From positions 1-24,017 of the IMG/VR virus record IMGVR_UViG_3300025282_002833: DNA of 24,017 nucleotides. One strand, written 5' to 3'. Origin of the DNA: a virus. Under the pieces are notes generated by a model that saw only the letters and a list, made by a program, of their open reading frames with translations, was not told the origin of the DNA and did no database searches. Shown piece by piece: positions 1,692-20,600 of the stretch (positions within the stretch are counted from its first letter, which is position 1; the number at the start of each line of letters is the position of its first letter). The position numbers and the translations under genes are program-made.

Positions 1692-3657
1692 AAACTTTCG
1701 CATTGAAGAAGATGCGGCGCGAGAACTAGCCGCACTAGTTAATTCTGCCTCTGATGCTATTAGCGGGCCGCTTGAAGGTAACGAGCGCCTGATCGCTGAC
1801 ATCTACACGGGACGAGATCCCCTTGGACGGGTTGGAGGACTCATTGGAGAACAAGGTGTTGCGGCCCACCTATTGAACAACCCGACTGAAGTCGGCTCCT
1901 GGCGTCCCCCCGAAACCACGGCCAACTTGTTCCTCTCACGCATTCGCCAGATTGTCACCAATCTCACACCCGGCGTGCCCTCATTCCGCGTCAAGGCTCG
2001 CGTCCCCGGCTCCGCCCATCTCGCCGATAAGCAGAATATGCTGACTCGCATCCAGACCGACCAAGGCAAACTGCGCGAGGCCATGCGGCGCGCTGCCTTC
2101 GTCGGCTTGGTCTCACCTTACTTCGGGGTCAAGTTGACCTACGACAAAAAGGAGAAGATCCCCTATCTACGCACGAAGTATCTCGCAGTAGAACCTCGCG
2201 ACTGCGGGTACGAGCCGTTCCATCGTCGTTTCGCTTGGCACGCTTACGACATGCAGTATGCCGACTTGCCGGATGACTGGAAACCAGATCACAAGGGAGA
2301 AGAAGAACCTAAGCCCTGGAGCATCGCCCGCGTAACCGAAGTCTATCACGATGGCTTTAAACACGGCGCGCCCAAGAAATCCTTTGGCCATTGCCCGATG
2401 TCTATTTTCGTCAACATTGGCGAACCCAAGTCAGCGGATATTGCGCTCCTACCCAACGCCGAGAAAGACGATAGCCTTGGCGAATACATGACGACTGAGG
2501 CGCTTCCCGCGTGCCCAATCGTGATGGGTAACTTCTTGGACCCCGCTCCCGGCGAAGATGTCCCCGCCGCCGAAGTCCTGTCGTGGATCCCGCTAATGCG
2601 TATGATCGTTCAGACCCTTGTCCAGATCGACCGCGAAATCCGCACCCTCAATAAGACAGTCCTCTATGACAAGAACGCCATCAGCGATGATGCCCTTCAA
2701 GTCGTGAAGCATGTTGCCCCCGGCGGGACCGTCTTCGTCGGCGTCGATCCCGACGACAATACCCGAGGCGTCAACGCCACCATGCGTCCCGTCGAGCAGA
2801 GCGCAGTTCTAGGCGAGTACCTCGCTGCCCTGAACACCTACATGCAACTCTTCGATGATGTGACTGGCGTATCCCCCGCTGATCGCGGCGTCCCAGCCAA
2901 CCCGAGGAAGTCAGCCACCGAAGCCGCTGCGATTACCGATGCCTCCAGCAAGCGCAACCAGGATCGCCTTGAAGTCATGGCCTTGGTCTGGACTCGCCTC
3001 GCCCAAGTAGGTTTCAAGTACCAGCGCGATATCTTCGGGCCGACCGTTGATGTCCCCCTCGATAACGGCGTCATCAAAACGATCCATGTCCCTGACCCGA
3101 TAGTTGCCTGCTTCTCCTTCGATGTTGACCCGGTTGAACTTGGGCACCTAAGCAATCAGGGCGACATTCAAGCCCTCATGCAATGGCTCACCGTGACCAC
3201 CAACACACAGCAGACCTTCGCTCAAGGGATGCCGCGCATGACCCGCGAAGCCCTGCGCCGTCTCGGCAATGCGATGGGCATTGAAGATGCTGACCTGTTC
3301 CTCGATGCGCCGATTATCGAACTTGGTCCCGAGGAGCGCTACATTCGCCACCTCCAGACCCAGGCCCCGATTGCGGTCTACGAAGACGATCAGCACGATA
3401 TGTATATGGCCTACTACACCAAGATGCAGGACGCCGCGCTCTCCCGAGGCGACAGCGAAATTGCGCTCATGGAACTGCGCCAAGCCATCGACATGCACCG
3501 CATGTTTGCGGCCAGACGCCAAGATGTCATCAACCCCGCCCAGATGGGCGAGATCATCCCTGGCATTGGCGCGGGTACTGGCGAGGTTGATAACAACCTC
3601 CAGGCAGCCTTGGCCTCTGGCGGTGTCCCCAGCGCGGTACCGCAGGGGGGCTACTAG
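1684..3657 (+). CDS. Portal protein
   Basis: The portal is the dodecameric ring at one capsid vertex that docks the terminase during packaging and holds the tail afterwards. I start it at ATG 1684 (657 residues), because the ATGGCTAA overlap with the terminase stop is typical and CAGGG lies about 10 bases upstream. An in-frame ATG at 1645 has no ribosome site. The assignment rests on position directly after the terminase, length in the podoviral portal range, and a typical portal segment at about residues 394-440: TGVSPADRG, a small-residue linker, SATEAAAI, then a long charged helix (crown/clip type helices). The C-terminus is low-complexity and Gly/Ala-rich (GIGAGTGEVDNN onwards). The gene is followed without a gap by the zinc-ribbon gene. 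The family assignment is confident, but no domain search was possible. Confidence 0.88.
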   Translation: MAKNFRIEEDAARELAALVNSASDAISGPLEGNERLIADIYTGRDPLGRVGGLIGEQGVAAHLLNNPTEVGSWRPPETTANLFLSRIRQIVTNLTPGVPSFRVKARVPGSAHLADKQNMLTRIQTDQGKLREAMRRAAFVGLVSPYFGVKLTYDKKEKIPYLRTKYLAVEPRDCGYEPFHRRFAWHAYDMQYADLPDDWKPDHKGEEEPKPWSIARVTEVYHDGFKHGAPKKSFGHCPMSIFVNIGEPKSADIALLPNAEKDDSLGEYMTTEALPACPIVMGNFLDPAPGEDVPAAEVLSWIPLMRMIVQTLVQIDREIRTLNKTVLYDKNAISDDALQVVKHVAPGGTVFVGVDPDDNTRGVNATMRPVEQSAVLGEYLAALNTYMQLFDDVTGVSPADRGVPANPRKSATEAAAITDASSKRNQDRLEVMALVWTRLAQVGFKYQRDIFGPTVDVPLDNGVIKTIHVPDPIVACFSFDVDPVELGHLSNQGDIQALMQWLTVTTNTQQTFAQGMPRMTREALRRLGNAMGIEDADLFLDAPIIELGPEERYIRHLQTQAPIAVYEDDQHDMYMAYYTKMQDAALSRGDSEIALMELRQAIDMHRMFAARRQDVINPAQMGEIIPGIGAGTGEVDNNLQAALASGGVPSAVPQGGY

Positions 3658-4076: not shown

Positions 4077-4091
4077 CCACTCGTATAGAAT
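4062..4091 (+). promoter_or_regulatory. Candidate promoter for the scaffold/capsid genes
   Basis: The only intergenic space longer than 60 bases carries TATAGAAT at 4084-4091, a good -10-like hexamer (TAGAAT, 4086-4091). TTTAAA at 4062-4067 lies 18 bases upstream as a weak -35 match. The site is 54 bases ahead of the scaffold ATG, where a strong late promoter for capsid production would be expected. The core TATAGAA also resembles the initiation region of single-subunit phage RNA polymerase promoters such as SP6, so a phage-polymerase site is an alternative. A near copy, GTATGGAATACT against GTATAGAATACT here, lies at 1643-1654. Sequence match is seen; function is inferred. Confidence 0.4.
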
Positions 4092-4144
4092 ACTAACTGG
4101 GAACTCTCTCTAGGAGCCTGAATAGGTAGACCCAAAGGGAAGCC

Positions 4145-4837
4145 ATGACTGAAACTTCTGATTCTGCGTCTGAGACGCCAACTGATGCTAGCCCGATTAC
4201 TACGGAGCAGGCCGCGCAACCCGCGCCTGTAGACCTTGTAGCGGAGGCGGGGGAGGCTGCTGCATCTAGCGATGCGGCACCAGTGCAGACAACCCGTTCT
4301 TTAGATGACCTGAACCTCGATGATGGAGTTCGCGCACAAATCGAATCCTATGTCAGTAAGTCCGTTAACGATGCTCTTCATAAACATGATGAGCGCCAGC
4401 AGCGGAAACTCGACGACGAAGGCTTTATGAATAAGTCCCAGATCGAAGAGTTACTTGCGGATAAAGACGCCGAATACTCAAGGCGAGAAGAGGCAAAGGA
4501 CTCTTTCCTACAAATCCTTGGTGGTGAGGGCATCAGCCCTGGCTCCGAAGACTACGGAAAGATCCAGAGTTTCTATCGCGATGCTGTTACAGACGGTCGC
4601 CTTACTCCGCACATTTTACTGTCAGAGGCCGGAATCAAAACTCTTGTCGCTATGTCTGGCGTTACCAACGCTCAGTCCACAGGCCCCCAAAGCGGCCTCA
4701 GTCGTTCGGCACCCGCGCCGGATGGTTCAGCCGCTTGGTCTGATGGTACTATCCAGTTGAACGCGACCGCAGCAAAGGGAGTTGGTTCCGACCAACAGAT
4801 GCGTGACGACATCAAGCGAGCGTTAGGTGATCTGTAG
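4145..4837 (+). CDS. Scaffolding protein (capsid assembly protein)
   Basis: This 230-residue protein sits directly before the major capsid gene, the usual place for a scaffold. It would form an internal core that guides capsid protein into a procapsid and is then expelled or degraded. Residues 1-60 are a disordered acidic region rich in Ser, Thr, Ala and Pro. Residues about 60-120 are highly charged, helical and probably coiled-coil (ERQQRKLDDE, EELLADKDAEYSRREEAKD). Residues about 170-210 are a Ser/Gly/Ala-rich linker. The protein ends in a short amphipathic charged helix (MRDDIKRALGDL), as in scaffolds whose C-terminus binds the capsid shell. The start has AAAGGGA at 4134-4140, close to the ATG, and a second TAGGAG at 4111-4116. 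No protease motif is visible. The call rests on composition, order and size, not sequence identity. Confidence 0.8.
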   Translation: MTETSDSASETPTDASPITTEQAAQPAPVDLVAEAGEAAASSDAAPVQTTRSLDDLNLDDGVRAQIESYVSKSVNDALHKHDERQQRKLDDEGFMNKSQIEELLADKDAEYSRREEAKDSFLQILGGEGISPGSEDYGKIQSFYRDAVTDGRLTPHILLSEAGIKTLVAMSGVTNAQSTGPQSGLSRSAPAPDGSAAWSDGTIQLNATAAKGVGSDQQMRDDIKRALGDL

Positions 4838-6050: not shown

Positions 6051-6920
6051 ATGGCCCTTCGGTCTGAATTACGCACCCGGCTCCAGCGCCGTCTGGGGCT
6101 GGGTGTCGTATCTGCCATTGAACAGGAACGCCTGAACGAGGCCCTGAACTCCGGTATCGCGAGAGCGGTCTCAGACGGGGTTCCGGGTCTTTCTCACGAT
6201 ACCTTTGTCGGGTCCGTCTATGGAGAGATGGCCCTTACTGGAGGCGCGACAATAACCTGCCCACTCGGGGGTACTACCTTCACTTTTGTCGGCGGCGATA
6301 ATCCGCTGACCTCGAATGTGTACCCGCACGATATTTTGCAGGTTGTAATTACTGGTACGACTACAAAGTTTCTGCTACGCGATGTTAAGGACGCTAACGA
6401 GGTTGATATCGGCGCTCCGGCTACGCAGGGTTATACTGGAGATGCTAACTCCACCGTTATCCGGCGATCTATTCCTCTTCCCACAACGGGTCAAGTTGTA
6501 GGTGTTTATCGCCACAGCGCCTCCTCCTCGGATGGCCTGAATACACGCAGGCTTACCCACGATCCGATTGTTGCGCGCCAGAGTCCCTTCAAAACGGGAA
6601 CTCCCAAGCACTACGAGCAACGCTTCTCTGAGGGGCAAAGCAAGAGTTTCATCTCGCTTTGGCCAGCGCCGACTTCTGTGACTGACCAGTTCACCGTTGT
6701 CCAAATGCGCTATATTCCTCGCCTAACTGCGGATAGCGATACTCTAATTTTCCCTGAAGAGGCTCTGGACGCTATTCTTGAACGCGCCCGAATGGCTTAT
6801 ATTACCTGGGCCGGAACGCACGCACCGACTACTCTCGCGTTGGCTAATGAGGCCATCCGAGATACGGCGGATTCCTTAAAGAACACTTCTAATACTAGAC
6901 AGATCGTAACTAAAGAATGA
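6051..6920 (+). CDS. Head-tail adaptor (tail tubular protein A-like)
   Basis: This 289-residue protein lies just after the capsid gene, where podoviruses encode the ring joining portal to nozzle (T7 gp11-type adaptors). An N-terminal helical stretch (LRSELRTRLQRRLG; then QERLNEALNSGIARAV) is followed by a beta-rich middle. The C-terminal pattern is characteristic of phage adaptors: FISLWPAPTS near residue 200, RYIPRLTADSDTLIFPEEALDAILERAR at about 220-247, where the Pro-rich strand feeds into a helix, then a helix over about 255-280. The region at about 55-140 looks like an inserted beta domain (GGATITCPLGGTTFTFVGG), which makes the protein longer than minimal adaptors. The start is nine bases after the capsid stop and lies beside a hairpin. 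The end overlaps the next gene by ATGA. The call is by pattern and position. Confidence 0.72.
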   Translation: MALRSELRTRLQRRLGLGVVSAIEQERLNEALNSGIARAVSDGVPGLSHDTFVGSVYGEMALTGGATITCPLGGTTFTFVGGDNPLTSNVYPHDILQVVITGTTTKFLLRDVKDANEVDIGAPATQGYTGDANSTVIRRSIPLPTTGQVVGVYRHSASSSDGLNTRRLTHDPIVARQSPFKTGTPKHYEQRFSEGQSKSFISLWPAPTSVTDQFTVVQMRYIPRLTADSDTLIFPEEALDAILERARMAYITWAGTHAPTTLALANEAIRDTADSLKNTSNTRQIVTKE

Positions 6921-7705
6921 GTGATTGCACTTGCGGGGGATGTCCTAGTGGTGACTATGGTTGCGGCTGCTGCTGCGCTTCGGTTACCGGATTACGCGGC
7001 GGTATTCACCCCGACTACATCAAGTCGATTTCTGCGGATATGGCGGTGGATCTCGATGGTGACACAAAGACTTTTCAGACCCGTGCGATTCTAGATTCAC
7101 CTGTTCATATCGTTTCGGTCAGCATCTCGCTGGTCTGCCTGCGCCGTAATGCTGCTACTTCAACAGAAGCAGGTTTGAAGAAGCAGATTCAAGAGGTAAA
7201 CACTACCGCGCTAGCCACTCTTCGGCCTCCAACACCCATTAATGTCTCGCTCTTCACACTACCCTCTTATAGTAGTACCACAGTAGATTTTGGTGGTTGG
7301 AATACGCATGTTAATACAATAGATGGGCGTACCTATATTTCGACCTGTTCCGTAAATTCTTACTCGCCCAACTGGACTTCGCCCGACGATCTCTTCGGTT
7401 ACTTCTGCGATGGTGGATTATTCATCGAGGTCAATGCCCCTACTACACAATATGGTCTTCGCGTTGTCGTGAACTATGTTGATCGCGCCTCCTTCTCGCC
7501 CGCTTATGGTGATCCGGTAGCCGTGCTTCAGCACTACTGGTCCTGCGCCCACGGAGAGACTGAGTTCCTAGAGGGCTTCTACGGAGGTAACTCTAGCAAT
7601 ACCGGATCTTCCGGCACCTCGACTGCTACTGAGGATACTTCGATTGCGGGTTCTGGTACCAACCCGTGGACTATTGCTACTGATCTAACTGAGATGGGGT
7701 TCTGA
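6917..7705 (+). CDS. Unknown virion-cluster protein with a Cys-rich N-terminus
   Basis: I do not recognise this 262-residue protein. It opens with seven cysteines in the first 20 residues (C4, C6, C9, C16, C18, C19, C20; MSDCTCGGCPSGDYGCGCCC), with Gly between them. Four more single cysteines follow. Residues about 30-215 look beta-rich and alternate hydrophobic and polar (SVSISLVCLRR; LRVVVNYVDRASF). The last 35 residues are a Ser/Thr/Gly-rich linker ending in TDLTEMGF. There is no hydrophobic signal segment. The gene starts inside the adaptor stop (ATGA overlap) and ends 7 bases before the nozzle gene, so it is co-translated with tail genes and is probably a tail or head-completion component. 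The Cys cluster could bind a metal or form disulfides. It is too irregular for a standard zinc ribbon. Confidence 0.75.
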   Translation: MSDCTCGGCPSGDYGCGCCCASVTGLRGGIHPDYIKSISADMAVDLDGDTKTFQTRAILDSPVHIVSVSISLVCLRRNAATSTEAGLKKQIQEVNTTALATLRPPTPINVSLFTLPSYSSTTVDFGGWNTHVNTIDGRTYISTCSVNSYSPNWTSPDDLFGYFCDGGLFIEVNAPTTQYGLRVVVNYVDRASFSPAYGDPVAVLQHYWSCAHGETEFLEGFYGGNSSNTGSSGTSTATEDTSIAGSGTNPWTIATDLTEMGF

Positions 7706-7712
7706 TCGAGTA

Positions 7713-10700
7713 ATGGCTAGTATGCGGATAGATAACCTGCCTATGGATCGCCAAACGGCGGGCTATGCGCGCAAGGAACCTAGCGGCGGAACAATGTTTT
7801 CGTCAGCAGCCTTGACTTCTGTCTTTGAGAAACGGGATGTGGACCCCGAAGCACCCCTGTTTAAACGCAGGTACGGAAGTCGCCGCCTTACTAATGCCTC
7901 GCCCAATCTCCTTGGCGTCACAGCCGATATTGACGAGGGGCGTGTCGAGGTTAATCACTCTTTCGCTACCGGAGTGGAGGACTGGACGATCTTCTGCACT
8001 TTACGCACCCCGCTCGATTCTTCAGATGGTGCGTTTCCGATATTCGAGTTTCAAGGTCTTCATGCGTATGTCTACTATGACTTCAACGCTGGCGCATCTA
8101 CTAGTACGGTATATCTACGCATCTATAATGCATCAGGAACTCAACTCTTAACTCACACTATGGGCGAGATAGGTGCTAATGGCACCGACTACCGCATCAT
8201 GGTGCGTTACATAGATTCGTCTAATACGATTTCAGCCGTTAGTTGGATAGTACCCGCAGAAGGGGGTACTGCCACGATTGGCACAGAGACAACTGCTACA
8301 AGCGCTGTTAGTGGCGGGGTTCTGAAGTTGATGGGCGAGCCGCTTGGTGTTGGAGCGCTGGCCTCCGCAGATGCAGCCGGATCAGCCACCTTGACCTTCG
8401 GGGATACCGAATTCGATGATGTCAATAATGGAACGCTGACTCTGATCTCAACAGATACGACTAGCCGTGTCTATACGATCAAGAACGACTATGGGGCCAC
8501 CACAAGCCTGGAGTACAACGCTGGTGCTTCTGCCTCGGTAGCGGCCACGAACTTAAAGAATACTATCGAGAGCGCGGCTGGTCATAACGGCAAACTGACT
8601 GTCGTGCAAACTGACGCTACCCTGGTAATTACTCAGGCTACTGCGGGAACAGGTGGCAATACTACAATCACTGCGGGAGCCAACTTCAATAATACCTGCG
8701 ATGTAAATATTGGGGCTACATTTACTGGCGGGCTGACGCAGGGACCGGGGGCATACCATCGAGTAGTCGTAACTAACTTCTTGCTCTACGATGTATCTGA
8801 CTTTAATAAGAGTTCGGAATACGAGGCGCTTGCCTCTGATCTAACTCCCACTAAGAGTGACGATAACGCCGCTGAGACTGATTACCTACTAGTCTGGCAT
8901 GATACCTTTGATGAGGGCGGCGATGTCCTGTCCTACACAAATAATGCTGGTACGGCCATCGATTCCTATCTAGTCCCGACTTCGCCAAATAATGGGGGCG
9001 ACACCTCCGGTACTGATATCCATTTTGGCGGGCAGGGCGTGATCGAGATACCGTTCTATCTCGACTTTGACGAATACTACTGGACTCCGATTACGGCATC
9101 AGCGCGCCTTGATTGGATGTTTCAGATCAACCTTACGCTGCCAGCAACACTCAAGAGTAGTACCGTCTTTGAGTTTCAGGATATCCTTAAACTAGATATC
9201 TTTAACAGCACAGGCAGTACATTTGTTTTTAAAGGTACCTACGCTGGAACGGGTACTGTTCAATCGACTCTCAGCCTTACTGCCGGAGCCTCCTATCAAG
9301 TCTTTGTTGGACGCGCCACTTCACAGACTCTTATTCGCGTAGTTGCGTCTAACGGTACGGCCACAGATACTACGGGCACTTCTGATAACCCGGCTGTCTT
9401 TAACTACGACAAGATGATGGGCTTTGTCATCGGAGATACCGCTGACCAGGAGAACACGGCACCTTTTGGCGGAAAGATCGAGCGTATGGCGTTCCACAAT
9501 GAGAATGATCTCAAGTGGCTTCCGCTACAAGATGCGGTCTTCTATTACGACATTTACTCGCTCTCTGGCGATCAGATCATTGACCGGGGCAATCGCGCCC
9601 TCAACTCATTCGGCAGCACTCGCATATCCTCCGCACCCCCGCATTATGCACAAGGTGGCTTCAAGGGTGGAGCCTATGTCGCGGCAACTGGCGGGTATAC
9701 GATGGCGGTCAGTACCCCCGACATCGACTATGTAGGTGAACTAAAGAAGGCGCTCAAGAAAGACGCGGCTATTCAACGCCGAGGTAGTAAGGCGTTTATG
9801 ACTTCTAACGGTGTCAACTACTTGATCGACGACTTCTCTAAGACTTTCCGCCCTCTTGGTATACCGCGCCCCGGTACTAAGGTTTCTTGTACCCCTCAAG
9901 GTGTGGGCGTTATCGACGGCTTCGTTCGCTATGCTTATCGCTGGGTAACCAAGGATGGCACAGTCGGGCCAGCCTTTGACCTAGATCCCGTAGATGCCCA
10001 GAGCGGAGTCAATGTCTTTCTCGGGGCTGATAACTTCGGCCTTCCCGGCGAGACACCCTTTGGTATCTCTTATGGTGAGTGCGAGGGCACGAAGAAAGCG
10101 GAAGGGCGTGGAGCAACCGCTACTGATGCGGTTGAGACCTTCTTTGTTAAAGATAGTGACGGCGGCTCTAATCATAATCTGCTTCGGCGCGAGATCAGTT
10201 TCCCCGGCCTTACACTAGAAGCAGCGGTCCGTATTCCTGGCATTGCCCAGATTAAAGAGAGCATCTTTAGCCAGGGTGTCGGTGCGCCAGTTGGCGTGGC
10301 TAACTGGATGTCCGATGAGGCTCCCTATACCTTTCCCTGGATTGGTCAGGGTACCCAAGAGTGCTGCTTCCAATTCGCCTTCCGCTATGACAGCAGCGCC
10401 GATTATCAGGTACTTTTTGGTATTGGAGCCAAGGATCAGCATTATACAACTGGCTGGCTAGTCTCTAATGACCATTACAAATTGAACCACCTAGTGGTTT
10501 CGATTCAGCCACCTCTTGTTGGGGGCAATAACCACAGTCTAGTTGTCTGTCGTGATGCGCCTTCGGGATCTAAAAAGCGCGATAACGATTTGACCGAATT
10601 CGCTTGGGACTACGATTTCCAAGACACGCATGACTACTGCGTAATCGTTCGTCGTGCAGGAACAAACTTCGCCTCTGGTACGGGCGAAGACCTAGCCGTT

Positions 10701-13559
10701 AGTATTTACAATAATACGCTTGATGGTACGGATAACGGTGCGGGAGGTACCTATGACGGTTGGAGGCTTTGGCCGAGTAGTACGGATGCAGAAAAGTTAA
10801 AGCCTAACTTCTGGGGACCGACTTATGCAGGTGTTGCTAATGACCAGGTAATGTGGGGCGCATCGCGCCTTGAAGGTTCAACCGCAAACCTATCGGTAAA
10901 AACACGCAAGCGTGCTGCTTCTGGAAGTGCCACCTTTAACTTTGATTACATAAACGGGGTACCGGGTGGTGCTACGGCAGGCCCTTATGTTCCTGGTACT
11001 GTCATGTACCACGGACGAATGTGGCGACAAGATTTCTTACTCCAGGTCTTGGCTATTAAGGGTTTAGATCGCTATGGCGCTCGTTCCGGTCCCCTTGCCT
11101 CAAACCTTGAAGTTGATACAGCATTCTGTCCAGACTCGGGCGTAGATACTATTAATGGCGGCTGGGATTACCCGCAGAGTCTCCGCACTAAATTCTACAA
11201 GTCGGGTGGTAGTACCTTCGATGCTCAGGTAGTGCTTACGGAGAATGTATCTAATACACCGCTCTTGGCTTACGGTCACGATATGACGGTTAATGCGGCA
11301 ACTACGCCGGATACTTGGACCACGACTAGTCTCGATAATGTACCCCTCTGGATCAACTGGACTTCGCGTAACGAGGGTTCAATAACAGTTGGTGTCGGAT
11401 CGAAACCGTCTGTCGAGATCGCGACTAAGAAATGGCATACCGGAGCCGGCATTCAAACATTCGGCGAATTCGCAAACGCTGTTGATCTCAAGCAATGGAC
11501 TTGGATCACACTTTATTTTCATCATATAAAGCGAGAGAGCGGTACTACTAGTAACATTATAGATGTCTGGCTAGAGCGAGTATTCATCGACGGGAATACT
11601 GGTGACTGGGGCGAAGTCTTTGATGTTGATATTGAACTAACCGGAGTCTTGGCTAACGGCGCTGCTGGTACCGGGCAATACGGCTTGTTCACAGTCGGCG
11701 GTTGGCCCGGTATGGATCAGGAGTATGAGACTGAGATTGCCGAAGTGCGTCTCTGGGATGGCGAATATTACACGGCGGCTGGAGGAGGTCTCGGAGCGAA
11801 TGCCTTTGGTACTTACCTCTCGAATCGTATCCCCCCTAATATCTGGGGTGAACTCTGGTACTACCTGCGCTTTATGAAGCCAGATGTCAATGATCCTGAT
11901 AATCAGGAGACAATGGACCAGTTTGGACTCAAGCAGAACAGTTCAGGTATTGGTGAGAAGGGTGCGGACTCTGTTGTTCTCTACCAACAATCTGAAGTTA
12001 AAGATGATGCTGATGATCCAGACAGCACGACCTTTTTTGTACCTTTCCCTGATCCGCCTCTGTCGGCTATTCGGGGAATCCAGATATTCCGCACTCAAGT
12101 TGTGCCAGTTACTAATACATTCCCCAATGGCAATACTAATCCCAACGCTATCCCCGAAGCCTGGAAGGCATGCCGTGATGCGCCGCTGTACCACCTATCC
12201 GAGATCCCGCGTGGTACGAGTTCGTATATTGATACCGCCGATGACACGGCACTAGGCACCCAACTTGACCAACTCACAGGCTTGATCCCGGCTAACCCCA
12301 GGGGAGTCTTTGAGTGGGGAGGGCACCTGGGCATCTATGTGCAGGATCAACCCCGCGTTCACTTCGCTGAATCCCCTACTTCTTGGGAGAGTTTCCCTCT
12401 GGATATGGTCTACGACCTTCCGGTGCGCGAACACGGCCCCATCGAAGCAGCGATTGAACTAGCCTCTCGTGACGCGAGACAGTCCCGTGTATTGTGCCTA
12501 GGCAAGTCTTGGGGTGTCTTCATTGATGGCAGCCCCACTCAACCCCAGGCGAACACGCTTGGAGGGGGTGTTGGGGCCTCTTCACCACGCTGCCTCGTGG
12601 TCGAAAAAGGCATTGCTTATGCCTTTAATGGTACTCTCTGGGGGATTACCGGAGATGGGCAAGTTGAAGACCTCAGCCTTCCCGTTCTAGACCTTCTCCC
12701 AGATCCCGATAATGCTCGGCTGTCCGTATCAGCGGCGCTGAGTTCTCTTTTCCTGATTGACGAATCAACCGGAGTCGCACTTAGGTTCCACCTAGCACGA
12801 CGACAATGGTATGTAGAGGATCGAAATGCGCTTTCTGTTACGGATGTGGATGGGGTTGACACTTGGGTTCATGTTTCTGGGTACCCTTCTGCTGGAAATA
12901 CCGCCGTTTATCAAGACGATGTGGAGTCGGATACGCCAGAAGTCGGGATTGCAGTAGCGAGTTACAACAACGGTGCCAATACCTTTGTGGTAAGCAGCGC
13001 GACTGGCCTGAAGATAGGACAACGGGGAGTCCTGGTTGGGGATGCCCACGCATCTGCGGCAGGGCGTAATCCGTACTACCGTCAGGCGGTAACTATCCAA
13101 TCTATCGATGGGACAACTATCACAGTTTCGGATGACCTAGACCTGACTGCCTCGTTTACTGAACTGGACGGTACGACTTCATATACCCTGGCTTACAAGT
13201 TCTATGCAGGAGTAGGCTATTGGGGTACTATGGTTGATACGGGACAGTTTAACCTTACAGGAGACCTAAGCCATGTGGACATGGGAGTTGAGCGAGGAGA
13301 TGGATGGTGGGCGGCATTTGACTCTTCAGATTTCGCCAAAGATCCAACAGACCGGACTGGTTTCGCTAGCCCTGAGTCTAAACCGACTAATATTGTCGAT
13401 GTTGCTGGTGATGGAGCATCAGCAAGATGGGGACTCTCCAACCGACAGCGACTCGAAAGGATCCTTGTTTTCTCCCAAGAACCGACTAACGGGTCAGGAT
13501 CCCCCGTGGGACTCACCGAACTTGAACTAAACTACACATCTGACCCAGGGGTTAAATAG
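7713..13559 (+). CDS. Giant tail nozzle-like protein with inserted LamG-type modules
   Basis: This 1948-residue protein occupies the place of the podoviral nozzle (T7 tail tubular protein B, P22 gp10 type), which is usually well under half this length. Nozzle-like segments are at residues about 675-760 (FRPLGIPRPGTKV, then the YAYRWVTKDGTVGPAF strand pair), 1110-1130 (LAIKGLDRYGARSGPL), 1445-1525 (IRGIQIFRTQVV, then SYIDTADDTALGTQL), and 1526-1735 (propeller-like repeats, for example GGHLGIYVQDQPRVHFAES, SWGVFIDGS, GIAYAFNGTLWGITGDG). The C-terminal closing part is at about 1829-1948. Between and before these lie concanavalin/LamG-like beta domains at about 78-380, 440-605, 830-1060 and 1135-1355, and a small beta module at 1740-1828. 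ATG 7713 has only weak ribosome complementarity; ATG 7722 is possible. The virion structural call is strong. The nozzle-with-insertions reading is inference from pattern. Confidence 0.7.
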   Translation: MASMRIDNLPMDRQTAGYARKEPSGGTMFSSAALTSVFEKRDVDPEAPLFKRRYGSRRLTNASPNLLGVTADIDEGRVEVNHSFATGVEDWTIFCTLRTPLDSSDGAFPIFEFQGLHAYVYYDFNAGASTSTVYLRIYNASGTQLLTHTMGEIGANGTDYRIMVRYIDSSNTISAVSWIVPAEGGTATIGTETTATSAVSGGVLKLMGEPLGVGALASADAAGSATLTFGDTEFDDVNNGTLTLISTDTTSRVYTIKNDYGATTSLEYNAGASASVAATNLKNTIESAAGHNGKLTVVQTDATLVITQATAGTGGNTTITAGANFNNTCDVNIGATFTGGLTQGPGAYHRVVVTNFLLYDVSDFNKSSEYEALASDLTPTKSDDNAAETDYLLVWHDTFDEGGDVLSYTNNAGTAIDSYLVPTSPNNGGDTSGTDIHFGGQGVIEIPFYLDFDEYYWTPITASARLDWMFQINLTLPATLKSSTVFEFQDILKLDIFNSTGSTFVFKGTYAGTGTVQSTLSLTAGASYQVFVGRATSQTLIRVVASNGTATDTTGTSDNPAVFNYDKMMGFVIGDTADQENTAPFGGKIERMAFHNENDLKWLPLQDAVFYYDIYSLSGDQIIDRGNRALNSFGSTRISSAPPHYAQGGFKGGAYVAATGGYTMAVSTPDIDYVGELKKALKKDAAIQRRGSKAFMTSNGVNYLIDDFSKTFRPLGIPRPGTKVSCTPQGVGVIDGFVRYAYRWVTKDGTVGPAFDLDPVDAQSGVNVFLGADNFGLPGETPFGISYGECEGTKKAEGRGATATDAVETFFVKDSDGGSNHNLLRREISFPGLTLEAAVRIPGIAQIKESIFSQGVGAPVGVANWMSDEAPYTFPWIGQGTQECCFQFAFRYDSSADYQVLFGIGAKDQHYTTGWLVSNDHYKLNHLVVSIQPPLVGGNNHSLVVCRDAPSGSKKRDNDLTEFAWDYDFQDTHDYCVIVRRAGTNFASGTGEDLAVSIYNNTLDGTDNGAGGTYDGWRLWPSSTDAEKLKPNFWGPTYAGVANDQVMWGASRLEGSTANLSVKTRKRAASGSATFNFDYINGVPGGATAGPYVPGTVMYHGRMWRQDFLLQVLAIKGLDRYGARSGPLASNLEVDTAFCPDSGVDTINGGWDYPQSLRTKFYKSGGSTFDAQVVLTENVSNTPLLAYGHDMTVNAATTPDTWTTTSLDNVPLWINWTSRNEGSITVGVGSKPSVEIATKKWHTGAGIQTFGEFANAVDLKQWTWITLYFHHIKRESGTTSNIIDVWLERVFIDGNTGDWGEVFDVDIELTGVLANGAAGTGQYGLFTVGGWPGMDQEYETEIAEVRLWDGEYYTAAGGGLGANAFGTYLSNRIPPNIWGELWYYLRFMKPDVNDPDNQETMDQFGLKQNSSGIGEKGADSVVLYQQSEVKDDADDPDSTTFFVPFPDPPLSAIRGIQIFRTQVVPVTNTFPNGNTNPNAIPEAWKACRDAPLYHLSEIPRGTSSYIDTADDTALGTQLDQLTGLIPANPRGVFEWGGHLGIYVQDQPRVHFAESPTSWESFPLDMVYDLPVREHGPIEAAIELASRDARQSRVLCLGKSWGVFIDGSPTQPQANTLGGGVGASSPRCLVVEKGIAYAFNGTLWGITGDGQVEDLSLPVLDLLPDPDNARLSVSAALSSLFLIDESTGVALRFHLARRQWYVEDRNALSVTDVDGVDTWVHVSGYPSAGNTAVYQDDVESDTPEVGIAVASYNNGANTFVVSSATGLKIGQRGVLVGDAHASAAGRNPYYRQAVTIQSIDGTTITVSDDLDLTASFTELDGTTSYTLAYKFYAGVGYWGTMVDTGQFNLTGDLSHVDMGVERGDGWWAAFDSSDFAKDPTDRTGFASPESKPTNIVDVAGDGASARWGLSNRQRLERILVFSQEPTNGSGSPVGLTELELNYTSDPGVK
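7944..8852 (+). other. LamG-like domain 1 with a nested beta module (residues 78-380)
   Basis: The start (VEVNHSFATGVEDWTIFCTLRT) and end (YHRVVVTNFLLYDVSDFNKSSEYEAL) match the opening and closing strands of a LamG/concanavalin-like sandwich, including the typical closing pattern before a short helix. Residues about 216-345 interrupt it with a different module: GSATLTFGDTEFDD, TLTLISTDTTSRVYTI, VAATNLKNTIESA, LTVVQTDATLVITQATAG and a GGNTTITAG turn. That layout of two hairpins, a helix and two more hairpins is seen in a recurrent phage tail-protein module. The nested organisation is inferred from where the LamG strands break off and resume. Confidence 0.5.
9030..9527 (+). other. LamG-like domain 2 (residues 440-605)
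   Basis: A second beta-sandwich-like stretch: ARLDWMFQINLTLPA at the front, VFEFQDILKLDIFNS and FVFKGTYAGTGTVQS strands, YQVFVGRATSQTLIRVVASN in the middle, and IERMAFHNENDLKW at the end, the position where LamG domains carry their closing strand. There is no obvious calcium-binding signature. It ends about 70 residues before the first nozzle-like segment. Confidence 0.45.
10200..10892 (+). other. LamG-like domain 3 inserted in nozzle strands (residues 830-1060)
   Basis: Begins FPGLTLEAAVRIPGI, continues with CCFQFAFRYDSSADYQVLFGIG, LNHLVVSIQPPLVGG, DYCVIVRRAG and LAVSIYNNTLDG, and ends near VMWGASRLEGS. This is a full set of alternating strands of the concanavalin type. It follows the YAYRWVTKDGTVGPAF segment (residues 740-755). 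The related LAIKGLDRYGARSGPL segment comes only after it (about 1113-1128), so the domain appears to split a nozzle region. Two adjacent cysteines occur at residues 884-885. Confidence 0.45.
11115..11777 (+). other. LamG-like domain 4 inserted in nozzle strands (residues 1135-1355)
   Basis: Strands include FDAQVVLTENVS, PLWINWTSRNEGSITVGVG, WTWITLYFHHIKRE, IIDVWLERVFIDGNTG and the closing IAEVRLWDGEYY, a classic LamG-type ending. The nozzle-like segment resumes at about residue 1376 (NIWGELWYYLRFMKPDVNDP) and 1445 (PLSAIRGIQIFRT). The domain is therefore bounded on both sides by nozzle-like sequence. Confidence 0.5.
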
Positions 13560-13561
13560 AT

Positions 13562-14308
13562 ATGGCTATCCCTTTTGCAGCACTCTCCTTCGGTACTGGT
13601 ATCGCCAGTTCGATTCTGGGTGGCCGCGCCAAGAAGAAGGCAGCAGCCGCCGCTGCCGCTGAGGCGAAGCGTATCCGCGAGTGGTACGAACAGAAGGCGC
13701 GTGATACTCAGCAGACCCTTGGCCGCGAGATCGAGACGATGCGTGCCTTGCGCGACCTCGATCTTCCTGCTCACCAACAAGCCGCACGGATCGCTTACAT
13801 CCAGCGCCAGAAAGGTTCGGAGCGTCAGGCTCGCGTTCGTGCCATCGGTCGAATGCCCCGCGAAGTCCGCGATGCAACCTTTGGCGGGCAGTTGACTCAG
13901 TACCTTGGTCGCGAAGGCCAGAAGATTGATCGCTATGCCAAGATGTCCCAGAACATCTACGGCATGGCTTCTGGGATGCAGCAGCAAGTCAACCAACTGC
14001 TCCAGGCAGGCGGCTCGGAATACGGCAGCATGATGAAGTCGGCCCAGATGATGGAGTACGAAGCGGGCGATCCGCTTGGTCAAGCGTTAGGCGCAGCCGC
14101 CCAGGGCTTCTCGTTGGCAGCCAAGCAGCAGAGCCAGGAAGCGGCACTTAAGAAGTCTATGGAGAGTCAGTTTAAACGCGATTTCTTTTCTAGTGCTGTC
14201 TTTGGCGATCAAAAGATCGGAACAACAATGGATAAGGCGAGGTCGATTGGTGACATGATGGATGATCCTGACTTTATGAATTTGTTTAAGGGAATGTTTA
14301 ATCAATAA
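13562..14308 (+). CDS. Internal virion protein A (T7 gp14-like position)
   Basis: A 248-residue protein, the first of three ejection proteins. Residues 4-23 are small and hydrophobic (IPFAALSFGTGIASSILGGR), a possible membrane-inserting segment. A Lys/Ala/Arg helix follows (KKKAAAAAAAEAKRIREWYEQKARD). A long, mostly helical Gln/Arg-rich body runs to about 200. The C-terminus is Met/Asp-rich (DMMDDPDFMNLFKGMF). T7-like phages encode a short internal protein here that inserts into the outer membrane during ejection, and the layout fits that role. AGGGG (13547-13551) lies 10 bases before the ATG, and the stop shares a base with the next start (TAATG). Codons are strongly C-biased up to about 14150 and then change. 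No enzymatic motif is seen. Family placement is by position and composition. Confidence 0.65.
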   Translation: MAIPFAALSFGTGIASSILGGRAKKKAAAAAAAEAKRIREWYEQKARDTQQTLGREIETMRALRDLDLPAHQQAARIAYIQRQKGSERQARVRAIGRMPREVRDATFGGQLTQYLGREGQKIDRYAKMSQNIYGMASGMQQQVNQLLQAGGSEYGSMMKSAQMMEYEAGDPLGQALGAAAQGFSLAAKQQSQEAALKKSMESQFKRDFFSSAVFGDQKIGTTMDKARSIGDMMDDPDFMNLFKGMFNQ

Positions 14309-17300
14309 TGGCTGCTCCCGATCTCTCTGGGTCTAGTCTAGGCGATACCTTTAGCGGCATGTTTGAAGGTTTCGGCAGCGCGCTAGGTGACATTGGCGGC
14401 ATCGCTGGTGCCCTCGGCGCTGGCGGTCCCCAGGCGATGACGAACTTCGTCAACAAGATCGCCGAGAAGCAGAATATGGAAATCGCCCGTAAGTGGGATG
14501 GTTTCCAGAAGGGGCAAGAACGCACCTTCACTATGATTCGTGATTCTGCCCAGCGCCGCCACGAGATGGCGATGCTGCATGAGAAACATAGCCTAGAAAA
14601 AGGTAAGGCGAATCAAGAGGCTATTTATAAAACGAACGCTGCGCTTCAAAACGATCCTACTGGACGATTGCGCGGACAACTTGTAGGAGGTCTTCCTCCA
14701 GAACTACAGCAGGAGGCGGGAACTCTCACCGATTGGGGACTTTCTGGTCTGGTAGTAAGGAGTGGTGGCGGATTAGGGTTGATTACTCAAGCGCAGGCGG
14801 GGGTTGAATCGGTCGCTGTTCAAACTAATTACTTAGCGGAGGAACTTGGTGTTCCTATTGAACCGGAAGCCACCAATACTGAAATCAACGACCAGTATCT
14901 AATGTGGCAACGCGATGCGGTTGGTTGGGTTAATGCTATGGATGGTATTGGTCGAGATGTTACTGCGCTACTTGGTTTAATCGAAGTAGAGTCGAAGTTA
15001 GAACCCTCTAAGTTATTTAGGTCGGCCCAAGGTAAGTTGGAGCAACTTACTGGATTGCAGAATCGGCTTATTGAACTAAATAAGAATTCTGATTCTTACG
15101 CAACACTTAGTGTTAGCCCAAAATACTCGGATAAGTCATTAAAATTACAGAGCGATATAGATGGGGCTAGAAAACTACTCGAACTAAGCGAGGACTACGG
15201 AGCAACTGCTCACTCAGCCAGCACCCTCAAGGAATCTATAGTAAGTGGGCAATTAAATACTTGGGAGCCTTTTACTCCAGGTAGCGTTATGGCTGATCCC
15301 GAGAAATTCCATGATTTAATGGAGATGCCGGAGGTTGTAGATTTACGAGCAGGCTTTGATAACCTTGAGAAACTTATTAACAGCCTTGATCCCGCCGCTC
15401 TAAAAGAGATATACGGCGATAAATTTGCAGGTTCCCCTGTTCAAAAGTTATTAGACCTTTGGACAAAAAGGAAGCGTGGCCCTGATAATCAACCAGTCAC
15501 TTTCGATACCCGTAACATTTTTCAGGAGATGCAGCGTCTAGCAACTGATCCCCAGGCTAGTCCAGAGGAGTTTAAAATCTGGGAAAACGGGCTAAAAGCC
15601 TTGTCTAAATTAAATGATCGTGATTGGGCCGTAAGAATCGCCCAGCGCGAAAATAAGATTAACCAAGTAGCCCAGGCCCAGCAGCACTTCCGCACACTAT
15701 TGCCGCATGAGATGAAGGCCAGGTGGGGTCAAGATCCATTTGGCGCATTCGGGCTTGATATAGATGAAGTGATGCGCCTAAGTTTAAGTGACGAACACGA
15801 GACTGTAGGAAACGCACTTGAGGGCCGTGGCCTGACAGATCACTCAGGATTTGATACTTCCCAAGAGATATCTCTTCCAGGGTATGACCCCTCTAAAGCC
15901 TATCTGCTCCCAAGTGTCGTGGACGCTACGGCTAAGGTGTATCTTACACCTCTCTTTGAGGGCATGACTCGGGAGCAAGGGCTTAACCAAGCCAATAAAT
16001 TGGCACAACTTATGGGTAGCAAAGGTATCGCCACTAACTTCCAAGATTCGGACTTTAGGCAAGCAGTTTTGACTCGTATAGGCCAACTAAACAAGGAATT
16101 CAACGGGCTGGTTCCGGCACGCTCAGATGCAGGTAGGGTAGAGGAGGTCATTAACTGGGGTGGTCGTCCCGCAGGATTAGATGAGGTTGAAGGATTTTCT
16201 TCAGACCCAAATCTAGGCGATAATATTATTCGCGATTCTTCTACTGGGCGGGCAGTCGATGAAACAGACAATACTTGGTTAGGCGCTATTGCACAGAGGG
16301 CCGGATCTAAGCCAGCCGGAGAGGAAGCCGCTATTAAGGCTGAAGGAGGGACTATAAATTTATCTGATCTTAAAAACTTCTTTGGCGAAGTGGCGGGGCA
16401 CGACTGGGTTACCTTGGTAGAAGGTAAGTTCCGTCATCGGGACAAACCGATTGGGAGTCTCTTTGCTCCTATAATAGAGACGACTATGCTCTGGGGTACC
16501 GAAGCAGATAGGGCGCTTAAGATACCGGGGGAGAAAAGGTTATCGGAGGGTGGCTTGGCAGGTACAGGGATCGGCTGGGCTGGAGATAAACCGCCTTATC
16601 ACACCTTGGAGTCGGACGCCTTGCGAAAGAAGGTTGAGGGTCGGCTCGCCACGATAGATGCTATGCGAAACTATGATTTTAGTCAGCAACCTGACCCGGT
16701 ACTTCGCCGTAAGGGGCAAGTTGTCCAAGATGCTTTGCGTAAGATACCTGATGATGAACTTGTTAGGCGGTTAGTTGCTTACGGTGGGCTAATGAGTGAA
16801 CTTGGATTTAGCCATGAAGAGTTATTTCCCAAGGGTTTAGTACCACAGACACCCGCAAATATAAAACCCCCGGAGGCGCGTTTCGATTCCTCTATACCTA
16901 CAATCGAGACTGTGCGAGGTTGGCGAGATGAGGCTACGGCAGCGCTATCCAGCCTACCAAATGTTTTCGCGACTTATGAGGGCCGTATGATAGATGCGGC
17001 CCCTGGCTTGGAGGTATCCCCTGAGATTATGGATAAGACTGTCCTCGATGCGATGCGCGTCGAGTTGTCCAAAACTGTAGCAGACTCGGAGGAGTTGCTT
17101 GCTGCTATGGAGAATCCTGAAATGGGAGCCTCTATTGTAGGCGTTCTTCAACAATGTATACTTGGTGATACAGGTAAAGATTATGCGACAACGGCAACAA
17201 AATTATCTGAAAGGGTAGAGGCTGCTCTCAATTCTGTAAATATTGGCGGCGGCGGATTAGCGTCAGACCAACCTAATCTCGTCAAAGGAGTCGTAGATAA

Positions 17301-17670
17301 AGTCAGCGCCCAGGAGAATCTACCGGACGCGATGAATGTGCTAGCGGAGGAACTAGTTAAATTAACGAATCTAGCGTTTACTAAACTTGGAACTGCTGGT
17401 CATGTTGAGAAGGCGGCGCAGTCTCCCCAAGTCAAATATATTCAACGCCTGATAGGTACATTTATGTCAGACCTTGAGGCGACCGCAGCCTCCGAACAAT
17501 TAGCCTTCCATAAAAGTTGGGAATCGCCTCCTGAACTTCAGGCTTTCCTTACTTCAGAGTACGATGAGTATGCAAAGGATCCTGATAATGCTTATAAACG
17601 CGCAGCAATTCTTATTGCAGCGCGCGGTAAAGTCTCGCAGAACCAAATTCTATTAGGTAGGCCGCGCTAG
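14308..17670 (+). CDS. Internal virion protein B (large ejection protein)
   Basis: An 1120-residue, mostly helical protein in the position of T7 gp15. Residues 1-40 are Gly/Ala/Ser-rich (GFGSALGDIGGIAGALGAGG), followed by a charged helix at about 50-100 (KIAEKQNMEIARKWDGFQKG, RRHEMAMLHEKHSLEKGKANQ). The remainder alternates helical blocks with short loops and is not recognised. I looked for a lytic transglycosylase or peptidase and found none; GLIEVESKLEPS (nt 14974-15009) resembles the start of a transglycosylase site, but the downstream GLMQ-type motif is missing. The start overlaps the previous stop by one base. Codons are C-biased for about the first 90 residues, then become A/T-richer from about nt 14581. 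Role in a trans-envelope ejection channel is inferred from order and size. Confidence 0.65.
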   Translation: MAAPDLSGSSLGDTFSGMFEGFGSALGDIGGIAGALGAGGPQAMTNFVNKIAEKQNMEIARKWDGFQKGQERTFTMIRDSAQRRHEMAMLHEKHSLEKGKANQEAIYKTNAALQNDPTGRLRGQLVGGLPPELQQEAGTLTDWGLSGLVVRSGGGLGLITQAQAGVESVAVQTNYLAEELGVPIEPEATNTEINDQYLMWQRDAVGWVNAMDGIGRDVTALLGLIEVESKLEPSKLFRSAQGKLEQLTGLQNRLIELNKNSDSYATLSVSPKYSDKSLKLQSDIDGARKLLELSEDYGATAHSASTLKESIVSGQLNTWEPFTPGSVMADPEKFHDLMEMPEVVDLRAGFDNLEKLINSLDPAALKEIYGDKFAGSPVQKLLDLWTKRKRGPDNQPVTFDTRNIFQEMQRLATDPQASPEEFKIWENGLKALSKLNDRDWAVRIAQRENKINQVAQAQQHFRTLLPHEMKARWGQDPFGAFGLDIDEVMRLSLSDEHETVGNALEGRGLTDHSGFDTSQEISLPGYDPSKAYLLPSVVDATAKVYLTPLFEGMTREQGLNQANKLAQLMGSKGIATNFQDSDFRQAVLTRIGQLNKEFNGLVPARSDAGRVEEVINWGGRPAGLDEVEGFSSDPNLGDNIIRDSSTGRAVDETDNTWLGAIAQRAGSKPAGEEAAIKAEGGTINLSDLKNFFGEVAGHDWVTLVEGKFRHRDKPIGSLFAPIIETTMLWGTEADRALKIPGEKRLSEGGLAGTGIGWAGDKPPYHTLESDALRKKVEGRLATIDAMRNYDFSQQPDPVLRRKGQVVQDALRKIPDDELVRRLVAYGGLMSELGFSHEELFPKGLVPQTPANIKPPEARFDSSIPTIETVRGWRDEATAALSSLPNVFATYEGRMIDAAPGLEVSPEIMDKTVLDAMRVELSKTVADSEELLAAMENPEMGASIVGVLQQCILGDTGKDYATTATKLSERVEAALNSVNIGGGGLASDQPNLVKGVVDKVSAQENLPDAMNVLAEELVKLTNLAFTKLGTAGHVEKAAQSPQVKYIQRLIGTFMSDLEATAASEQLAFHKSWESPPELQAFLTSEYDEYAKDPDNAYKRAAILIAARGKVSQNQILLGRPR

Positions 17671-17672
17671 AT

Positions 17673-20600
17673 ATGGCTGCACAGCAAGCAGGTTGGATTG
17701 ATCGTATATTCAACTCTACGATTGGCCTCCCGCAACAAATCCTTTGGCGTTTGATACGCGCCGCTAAAGATGAGGACATCTCCCTGTGGAGTGAGAAGGG
17801 TCTTCTTGACTTCGCTAATGTTCCGCTCCTTGGCATCCTAGATACTCATAAAGAGGATGTTATGCCCGATGCTATGGCCGAAACCTTTGGCCTAGAACCG
17901 GGTCTTATGAACGAACTTGGAGTCGCCATTGCGACTGATCCGCTAACCTATCTCACGGGTGGTCTTAGCGCTTTGGGTAAGGCCGCGAAGGGAGCCGAGT
18001 TCGCTTCAAAAATCCCCGCTGTTCAAAAGGTGATGCAAACCGCAGCGAGGGCTGGTGGCCGCTTCGATCTCCCTGTGCCTTCCTCAGTTAAGGGGGCAAA
18101 AGATCCTGCCGAAAAGGTCTTCTCAACTTCTACCCAATATGCCGCCGAACTAACTGGCCGCGATCTCAATACTGTTCTAGAGCGCGCTACCGCGAATCTT
18201 GTGGGTAAGTCCGGAGATAACTATGGCCGCCAATTAAAGGGTATCCAGAAGGCTAAAGGAATGCTCGGGGGTTTAAACGAAGAGCAGATGGGCATGAAGG
18301 TCATAGACCTTATGAAGAATGATGGCCACCGCAAGTTGGCTGTTGGTATCCCCATGCTAACTAGTCTAGGCATGAAGATTGATGTCCCTGGAACACACCA
18401 AAACTGGTGGCAAGCCTATTCGGCGGCTAAAGGTAAAGGCGGCGAAATGCTAGCCAATACTTGGTTGACACGCAATATAGCAGGGCTTCCTTGGGTTTCC
18501 TCTGGCCTCAAAACAATCGCTTCACCCGTTACCCAATTCAAGGGCGGTTTTCGTGTCGGTGCGGAAGCGCGGACTGCAATTCATACTGCGGCTGATAAGG
18601 TCAGCCCCGAGCAATTTGAGAGTATGAGTCATTGGCTAAACTCGGCTACTGGAGGAGGCGAGATTGCAGTTAAGATTAGTGCTGGTGGAGCAGAGCCGAT
18701 TATGAAGGCTTTTGATGTAGCCGTGAAGGCTGGTAAGTCTCCCCGTGACGCTCTGACCGCAGCCATTAGTAAGATTAAGGATAAAGGAGATACAACTGAG
18801 CAAGTTTGGGCGCGGCTTAAAGGTCTAGATGCTGCTCCTGATAGCGACACCTTTAAGAAACTCCTTCTGCCCAAGACTAAAGGTACGATGCGGAAGCAGT
18901 TGCAGCAGGCACTTCATACTGCAATGATTGAAGGCGATCATGCAAGGCGGCTTGCCCGCAGTGGTCAGTACGATAATTACCTGACTAAACTTGATCTCGA
19001 CCTACAGGCTAAAGAACTTTTTGCGAAGCGCGAAGAACTGGCGTTCGGTACTGGACTCGCCGAAACAGCCTACGAGGCTGGGCGTAATCTTCGGCGAGGT
19101 ATAAATTGGGCGTTTAAAACTGGAACTGATACTCAGCACGCGCAGGAAGCGATGCACCAGTACCTCGCCCATTCTGCCCGAGGGCATGACCAAGCGGCCC
19201 AGTTGGGTAAGATGCTATATACCAAGGTAAAGCATATCCTCAAGGAACCCGGCATGGAGGGTTGGACTGAGGAGAATTTCTTGGACATGATCGGCGGTCT
19301 AATGGAGTCTGATGCGCTCCAGGTTGAACTAGTTGAATCCCTTAAACTAGGTAAGATTAATCCTTCAAATGCCCTAGATGTAGCCAAAGGTTGGGATAAC
19401 TTTGTCCAGCGGCATACTCAGGTTATGTCCTCATTTGAGGGTATCCTTAAGAGTAGGGGTGTCACAGGCGAGACCCGTGATAAGTTACTCGAACAGTTCC
19501 AGGGCGAGGTCTTTGATTATTTGCCTCGAATAGAAGAACAGCGTTTGACTACGCATTATGAGCGGTTACTTAAGGTCAATAAGGATGTTAAGCGCTCTTG
19601 GACACCGCAGCAAAAGCGCCGAATGCGCCGCCGCCATAACGCGCACATTCTTCGGAGCGGGCCGCATAGAGATTATCAAGTTGGTGAACTTACTGACGAT
19701 CAACTTCGAGGTGCGCTTGATACTATCGAGAATACTGCGCGGCGTGGTATGCGTCCAGATGAGATCGCTGCCCATATTGACGAGAATCGCGTTCTTAGTA
19801 TGTTTAGGCAAGCCCACGGACTGACACACGACGAACTAATTACCGTGTTTAGACGACGCGGTAAAGGCGACTTCCGCCGAGTTCGCCGTGAGATGCTGCC
19901 CAATCGCTTCCCGCTTTGGTCGCAAACTCGTAAGTCTTGGACAACGCATCAAGCGCAGGAGAGCGTTGCGCCGTTTGGTTTCTCGATTAAGCGGGGCGAG
20001 AAAGGTGGCTATTTCATTCGCCCTGATGCGGTTAAAGAAGGAACAGCCAAGCGTAGTTGGGGCTGGGACTCTAAGCAAGGCTATACCACAATCGACGCTG
20101 CCATGCAGGATATGAGGAAATGGCTAGATAGCGATACAGGAGCCAAATGGCGTAGCAAGTACGGTCCTGATATGGAGCAGTTGCCGGAGGCAGCACTTAA
20201 GAAGTTAAAGCAGCAGAAAGATATCCATATTAGCACTAGCGAATTAGGGCTTTTACGCCAGGCTATTAGTGCAGCAGATAAACGCATTCTGCTGGGTACA
20301 CAAAAGAAATTCGACGAACATCTGCTGCCCGGTTATGGTCGCGCCATCAACGAGAAATCTGGTGACGCTATGGACTGGTATCGGATGCGTCAGACCGCAG
20401 ATGCGCGGACTTATAGCCTGGAAAATAAACTCAAGGAAGCGGACGAGTATGGGCAGGGTGGGGATGCGGCCTTTGAGGCAGCGAATACTCCAAAGTACGA
20501 TAGCGTTAGTGTAGATATTGATGCTCCTCGCGCACTAGGAAAGGAGGAGGACCAAGCCATCTTTCTTAAGGCTATTAGAGATGCAGGTGGTGTTGTCTTT

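Follow-up and report, generated by a model that had tools for sequence, protein, structure and literature searches.

A 1948-residue tail protein encoded after the SU10-type portal and adaptor genes

We analyzed an IMG/VR viral contig of 24,017 bases, termed the window below, and found that one of its genes (7713-13559) encodes a tail protein in which a core resembling podoviral nozzles by fold is separated by LamG-like stretches. A hexameric tail nozzle whose LamG domains crown the tip, contact ligands, adsorb the particle and trigger opening is somewhat probable on this evidence. An earlier note, made from the sequence alone, had proposed a nozzle with LamG insertions; position, conservation and fold matches speak for this proposal, whereas sequence profiles give no link to SU10-type nozzles. 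What that note had observed was partly confirmed: the open frame, its position, the distinction between a conserved core and inserts and the fold were borne out, whereas the extent of LamG1, the fold of LamG1 and LamG2, the closing part and the claim about fibres required correction.

The gene consists of a single open frame on the plus strand, of 1948 residues and without internal stop; all other features given with coordinates for the window lie on the same strand. A terminase (PHROG 38) is encoded upstream, as are a portal protein of the SU10 type (1645-3657; Pfam SU10_portal, E 1.1e-7, above cut-off) and an SU10-type adaptor protein (6051-6920; Pfam SU10_adaptor, E 1.1e-6, above cut-off). 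A beta-rich gene of 262 aa (6917-7705) precedes the nozzle gene, and three helix-rich ejection-type proteins, so assigned from composition and position, follow it: 248 aa (13562-14308), 1120 aa (14308-17670) and 1919 aa (17673-23432). The fraction of A/E/L/M/Q/K/R residues is 0.46-0.57 in these three proteins compared to 0.31 in the nozzle. Size, order and composition thus fit ejection proteins; family searches, including Pfam and PHROGs, returned no match confirming that role. The gene at 7713-13559 lies where nozzle-type genes are found, near the adaptor and before the ejection-type genes.

Conserved core pieces flank less conserved LamG-like blocks

To follow the protein beyond the window, relatives were collected from IMG/VR. 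Further loci of a near group provided 12 full-length orthologues with 50-66% identity to the window protein from end to end. Distant lineages (G014, G016/G017 and L129) were found in IMG/VR via portal and core profiles, and there conservation also runs end to end, at about 25-40% identity. The near group and these lineages, all of them uncultured and apparently short-tailed phages, have a common order: N-terminus, two LamG-like domains, core, two LamG-like domains, core. A portal-based scan detected no relative without LamG stretches, and the distant ones with a readable nozzle keep the architecture; the LamG expansion is therefore old in the lineage. Among GenBank phages, neither the nozzle (searched by tblastn) nor the portal or the capsid had a relative. 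A related phage piece lies in the chromosome of a Gemmatimonadota MAG (L053, 209-10699). As this piece is bounded by two 100-N scaffold gaps, the link is doubtful and a Gemmatimonadota host was not accepted.

Conservation was expressed as the mean pairwise identity among 13 orthologues (the window protein and the 12 others). It amounts to 0.70, 0.64 and 0.74 in the core (residues 606-770, 1436-1525 and 1526-1738, respectively), compared to 0.31, 0.53, 0.46 and 0.51 in LamG1 to LamG4. Blocks of higher identity flank the low-identity LamG blocks on either side, which in an alignment is the pattern of domains inserted into a core. LamG3 (residues 830-1118; 10200-11066) and LamG4 (residues 1119-1362; 11067-11798) are situated between highly conserved core pieces and are thus read as insertions, as the earlier note had it for at least two of the stretches. 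For LamG1 (residues 78-384; 7944-8864), the fastest evolving of the four, and LamG2 (residues 385-606; 8865-9530), the left boundary is a conserved N-terminus of only 77 residues (7713-7943, identity 0.49), so that the flank on this side is a short one. This presumed platform segment of the nozzle is kept in L129 and G016/G017 and resembles, by eye, the N-termini of minimal nozzles. LamG2-4 contain invariant motifs, e.g. PFYxDFDEY, and their degree of conservation (0.46-0.53) is compatible with either role, structural or binding.

The core itself is composed of several pieces. Residues 683-770 (9759-10022) comprise conserved blade strands and the beginning of a presumed FN3/Ig-like domain in two halves, of which residues 1436-1525 (12018-12287) would constitute the second. 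Beta-propeller blades occupy residues 1526-1738 (12288-12926). The C-terminal part includes a variable small domain (residues 1739-1830; 12927-13202; identity 0.42), whose profile weakly matches part of a solved tail tube chain (E 0.12), and ends with the closing or platform part (residues 1831-1948; 13203-13556; identity 0.55). The stretch 1445-1948, described earlier as the closing part of the nozzle, includes this further variable module.

Fold matches to solved nozzles and to LG domains

An AlphaFold2 model of residues 680-1879, a stretch that includes LamG3 and LamG4, was built from an alignment of 20 sequences and has a pLDDT of 68.8. Most of the body of LamG3 and a portion of LamG4 have values of 75-93, and much of the propeller has values of 70-84; LamG4 as a whole is modelled with less confidence than LamG3. 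The model is poor in the first core strands, in another part of LamG4 and in some linkers, residues 683-770 appearing as beta strands of low confidence. When the model was compared to the PDB with Foldseek, nozzles were retrieved (SU10 7z47_G, E 3.4e-6; phicrAss001 7qol_P, 5.3e-6; Pa223 tail, 2.5e-5), together with laminin alpha-2 LG4-5 (E 1.4e-6), neurexin (2.8e-6), Gas6 and pentraxin (4.1e-5), and several propellers as well as sialidases in which a propeller is joined to a lectin domain. BFVD matches comprise podovirus proteins, seven-bladed-propeller proteins, ConA-lectin phage proteins and P22 Gp10-like proteins. The query being a multidomain model of 1200 residues, all TM-scores were low, and the sub-region to which each match belongs was inferred. 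A control model of residues 1-1080 made from the single sequence (pLDDT 33.8) gave no confident fold match; its 2 matches at E<=0.001 had probabilities of 0.23 and 0.09.

At the moderate confidence of the 680-1879 model, a propeller core like that of solved nozzles is present, and the LamG3/4 region matches LG domains instead of folding as part of the propeller; on both points the nozzle-with-LamG proposal held. Of the four LamG stretches it included, LamG3 and LamG4 thus have laminin, neurexin and pentraxin matches, whereas for LamG1 and LamG2 the evidence for the fold is weaker and consists of weak profile matches and sequence pattern (e.g. LamG2 to Laminin_G_3 by hhalign, P 0.011).

Searches of Pfam, PHROGs and PDB sequences with the whole window protein and its segments gave nothing significant. 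No LamG family profile scored above cut-off in the window protein or across the 13 records; the Pfam Laminin_G_3 profile matched one relative with E 0.00024-0.0012 in the stretch equivalent to LamG4. Comparison by hhalign of the LamG stretches among themselves and with controls (28 comparisons) had a best P of 0.0013, obtained for LG1-LG3, with LG1-LG2 at P 0.0058. As these are values of single tests, profile likeness between the LamG stretches is suggestive at best. For the nozzle part, hhalign revealed no profile link between the joined core and SU10-type nozzles, nor were the sequences of solved nozzles linked to the core, and homology in sequence to a known nozzle family was not found. SU10 and T7 nozzles are likewise without detectable sequence homology to each other (PMC9509320), and sequence homology is therefore not strictly defining for nozzles. 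To the eye, the propeller motifs of the core follow each other much as they do in minimal nozzles of 513-554 aa.

Foreign modules at LamG1

LamG1 proper measures about 180 residues in each of the relatives. In the window protein, a promiscuous module of 126 residues (residues ~218-343; 8364-8741) interrupts the domain, so that the extent of 78-380 given to LamG1 in the earlier note describes a LamG-like stretch but overstates the true domain. The module is missing from the 12 other full-length nozzles and is unique to that of the window. Outside nozzles, it was detected in 16 other viral contigs (loci L133-L148) with 44-73% identity, in at least 14 unrelated viral proteins; contexts include tandem arrays (L146), an apparent tail-collar protein (L134) and large structural-looking proteins. 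With this distribution it looks like a mobile domain. It starts with 'ATLTFGDTEFDDVNNGTLTLI' and ends with 'FTGG', and no name was found for it in Pfam or PHROGs.

A different insert of about 200 residues is present between LamG1 and LamG2 of the nozzle in another locus (L007, about 4091-4750). It resembles structural proteins from the virions of giant Vibrio phages (E 1e-14) and has a weak CBM_4_9 match. Because two independent gains occurred at nearly the same place, the LamG1 region is tolerant of insertions and probably forms an exposed surface.

The gene upstream of the nozzle

The earlier note found no separate fibre or spike gene between the nozzle and ejection genes. Two relatives classed as linear, G003 and G006, have ends that overlap over 1336 and 1828 bases, respectively; they are probably complete genomes, with sizes of about 42.2 and 42.1 kb. 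ORF clustering and inspection, short of full family annotation, detected no other large beta-rich or fibre-like gene in either, and no clear fibre gene is thus present in the two complete relatives. However, the claim had overlooked the gene at 6917-7705, which is situated not on the ejection-gene side but directly upstream of the nozzle, between it and the adaptor gene. By slot and size (about 210-270 aa) this gene corresponds to the SU10 short tail fibre gp16, and in other phages the same slot is occupied by fibre or collar genes; it is a candidate for a second appendage or adhesin. Homology to gp16 or to collar-type fibres was not found (hhalign P 0.62). The gene is conserved in relatives, together with the nozzle gene in the near group, and in the window and G006 its product is short and conserved, with no added domain. 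A dense cysteine cluster (CTCGGCPSGDYGCGCCC) lies at residues 4-20 of the product and is kept in many relatives.

In two other loci the upstream gene has twice the usual length. The counterpart in L004 (2410-3927) encodes 505 aa and ends in an ArabFuran-catal-like domain (E 2.2e-5, narrowly missing the cut-off), of alpha-L-arabinofuranosidase-like or lectin-like character, a module also present in tail proteins of actinophages and cyanophages; the counterpart in L010 (225-1775) encodes 516 aa and carries an extension similar by eye to that of L004. In L129, a BclA/C1q-like, fibre-like protein of 184 aa is encoded directly before the LamG nozzle (1689-2243; E 3.8e-5). As judged from these genes, a second exposed protein besides the nozzle probably exists, hence recognition by the nozzle alone is just one possibility, and the adhesin role may be shared between the nozzle and the 6917-7705 product. 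Large extra genes lie beside the portal in two distant lineages (L095, 10526-14101, 1191 aa; L105, 3731-5608, 625 aa) and could be fibres or spikes.

Proposed working of the tail tip

Starting from what was observed directly (the open frame, the gene order, the conservation pattern, the insert and the fold matches), we infer a hexamer with LamG domains exposed on the tip, ligand binding and triggering. The propeller core (about residues 683-716 and 1526-1738) would form the exit channel beneath the adaptor. The first insertion (LamG1 and LamG2, residues 78 to ~606) would separate the N-terminal platform segment from the first blade strands, and the second (LamG3 and LamG4, residues ~830-1362) would be accommodated inside an Ig/FN3-like nozzle domain projecting from between blades. 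In such an arrangement the LamG domains, probably 24 per tail, would crown the tail tip and make contact with envelope ligands such as surface glycans, the particle would adsorb, and ligand contact would trigger channel opening. LamG1 would be the variable, module-accepting face. In a stronger version, possible if unlikely, separate fibres are absent and receptors are bound solely by the nozzle, with its four LamG domains at two sites and its capacity to acquire further adhesin modules in LamG1; host range would then evolve inside the channel protein.

The LamG domains could instead be mainly structural and lengthen or gate the tip, with recognition ensured by the 6917-7705 product or another small protein, a reading that we consider rather unlikely. 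The conservation of LamG2-4 and their invariant motifs agree with it, SU10 with its Ig-like domains and phicrAss001 with its crass domain serve as models for lengthening and gating, and the upstream gene occupies the slot of gp16 and of other phages' fibre genes, with the ArabFuran-catal-like end domain of the L004 counterpart and the C1q/BclA-like protein of L129 pointing in the same direction. Against it, LamG1 diversifies and takes up foreign modules, and the 6917-7705 product is dissimilar to SU10 fibres and, in the window and G006, carries no added domain. It is improbable that receptor binding is shared, within one apparatus, between the LamG domains of the nozzle and the 6917-7705 protein, the latter docking as the SU10 short fibre does on a nozzle loop. 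Joint conservation of the two neighbouring genes in the near group would suit such sharing, as would the gain of adhesin-type modules by either partner in different lineages, but SU10 short fibres are unrelated in sequence. That the protein is a large LamG adhesin or tail fibre, the nozzle being made by another gene, would accord with the lack of a sequence profile match to any nozzle family but is very improbable given the propeller and nozzle fold matches, the gene position right after the adaptor region and the absence of an alternative nozzle candidate in the two complete relatives.

Comparison with known nozzles

The nozzle is usually seen as a conserved part of the channel, and host range as evolving in the fibres. 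The tail tip proposed above, a nozzle with lectin-like domains that acquires foreign modules, would combine adsorption with channel gating in a single molecule, would allow a direct test of how binding triggers opening and would explain podophage genomes without a detectable fibre. Nozzle expansion is already known: the nozzles of SU10 (Ig domains) and phicrAss001 (crass domain) are expanded at places comparable to those of the window nozzle. By contrast, the literature searched gave no instance of a nozzle that bears four LamG domains, distributed over two sites, and that has captured a module in one of these domains.

In phicrAss001, the muzzle gp44 is a nozzle built on a seven-bladed propeller; it bears Ig-like domains, one of which has a large distal domain inserted into it. 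This distal domain is proposed to contact the cell, and length varies through insertions (PMC10172136). These traits recall the window nozzle. Unlike in the latter, however, the inserted part has a crass fold and not a LamG fold, no lectin-like insertion is found near the N-terminus, separate tail fibres are present, and gp44 has no detectable sequence relation to the window nozzle.

In the SU10 nozzle gp17, four Ig-like domains that rearrange upon attachment are located between blades 2 and 3, and the window shares with SU10 the type of its portal and adaptor neighbours and a gene of 260-270 aa directly upstream (PMC9509320). The two nozzles differ in that the Ig-like domains of gp17 are part of a 1005 aa protein whereas LamG domains are found in 1948 aa; SU10 also possesses a needle and separate fibres of a short and a long type, and no sequence similarity to the window nozzle was found. 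T7-type tail tubular proteins provide an experimental precedent for host receptor binding by this part of the tail; the receptor in that case is a protein, and the literature searched reports no LamG domains for them. Minimal nozzles (Bruynoghevirus PAA2, Vicosavirus NV1, SCYZ1, BUCT695 and VpJYP1) also have a small gene upstream; they differ from the window nozzle by a length of 513-554 aa, with no extra domains, and their upstream gene is of the tail-fibre or collar type.
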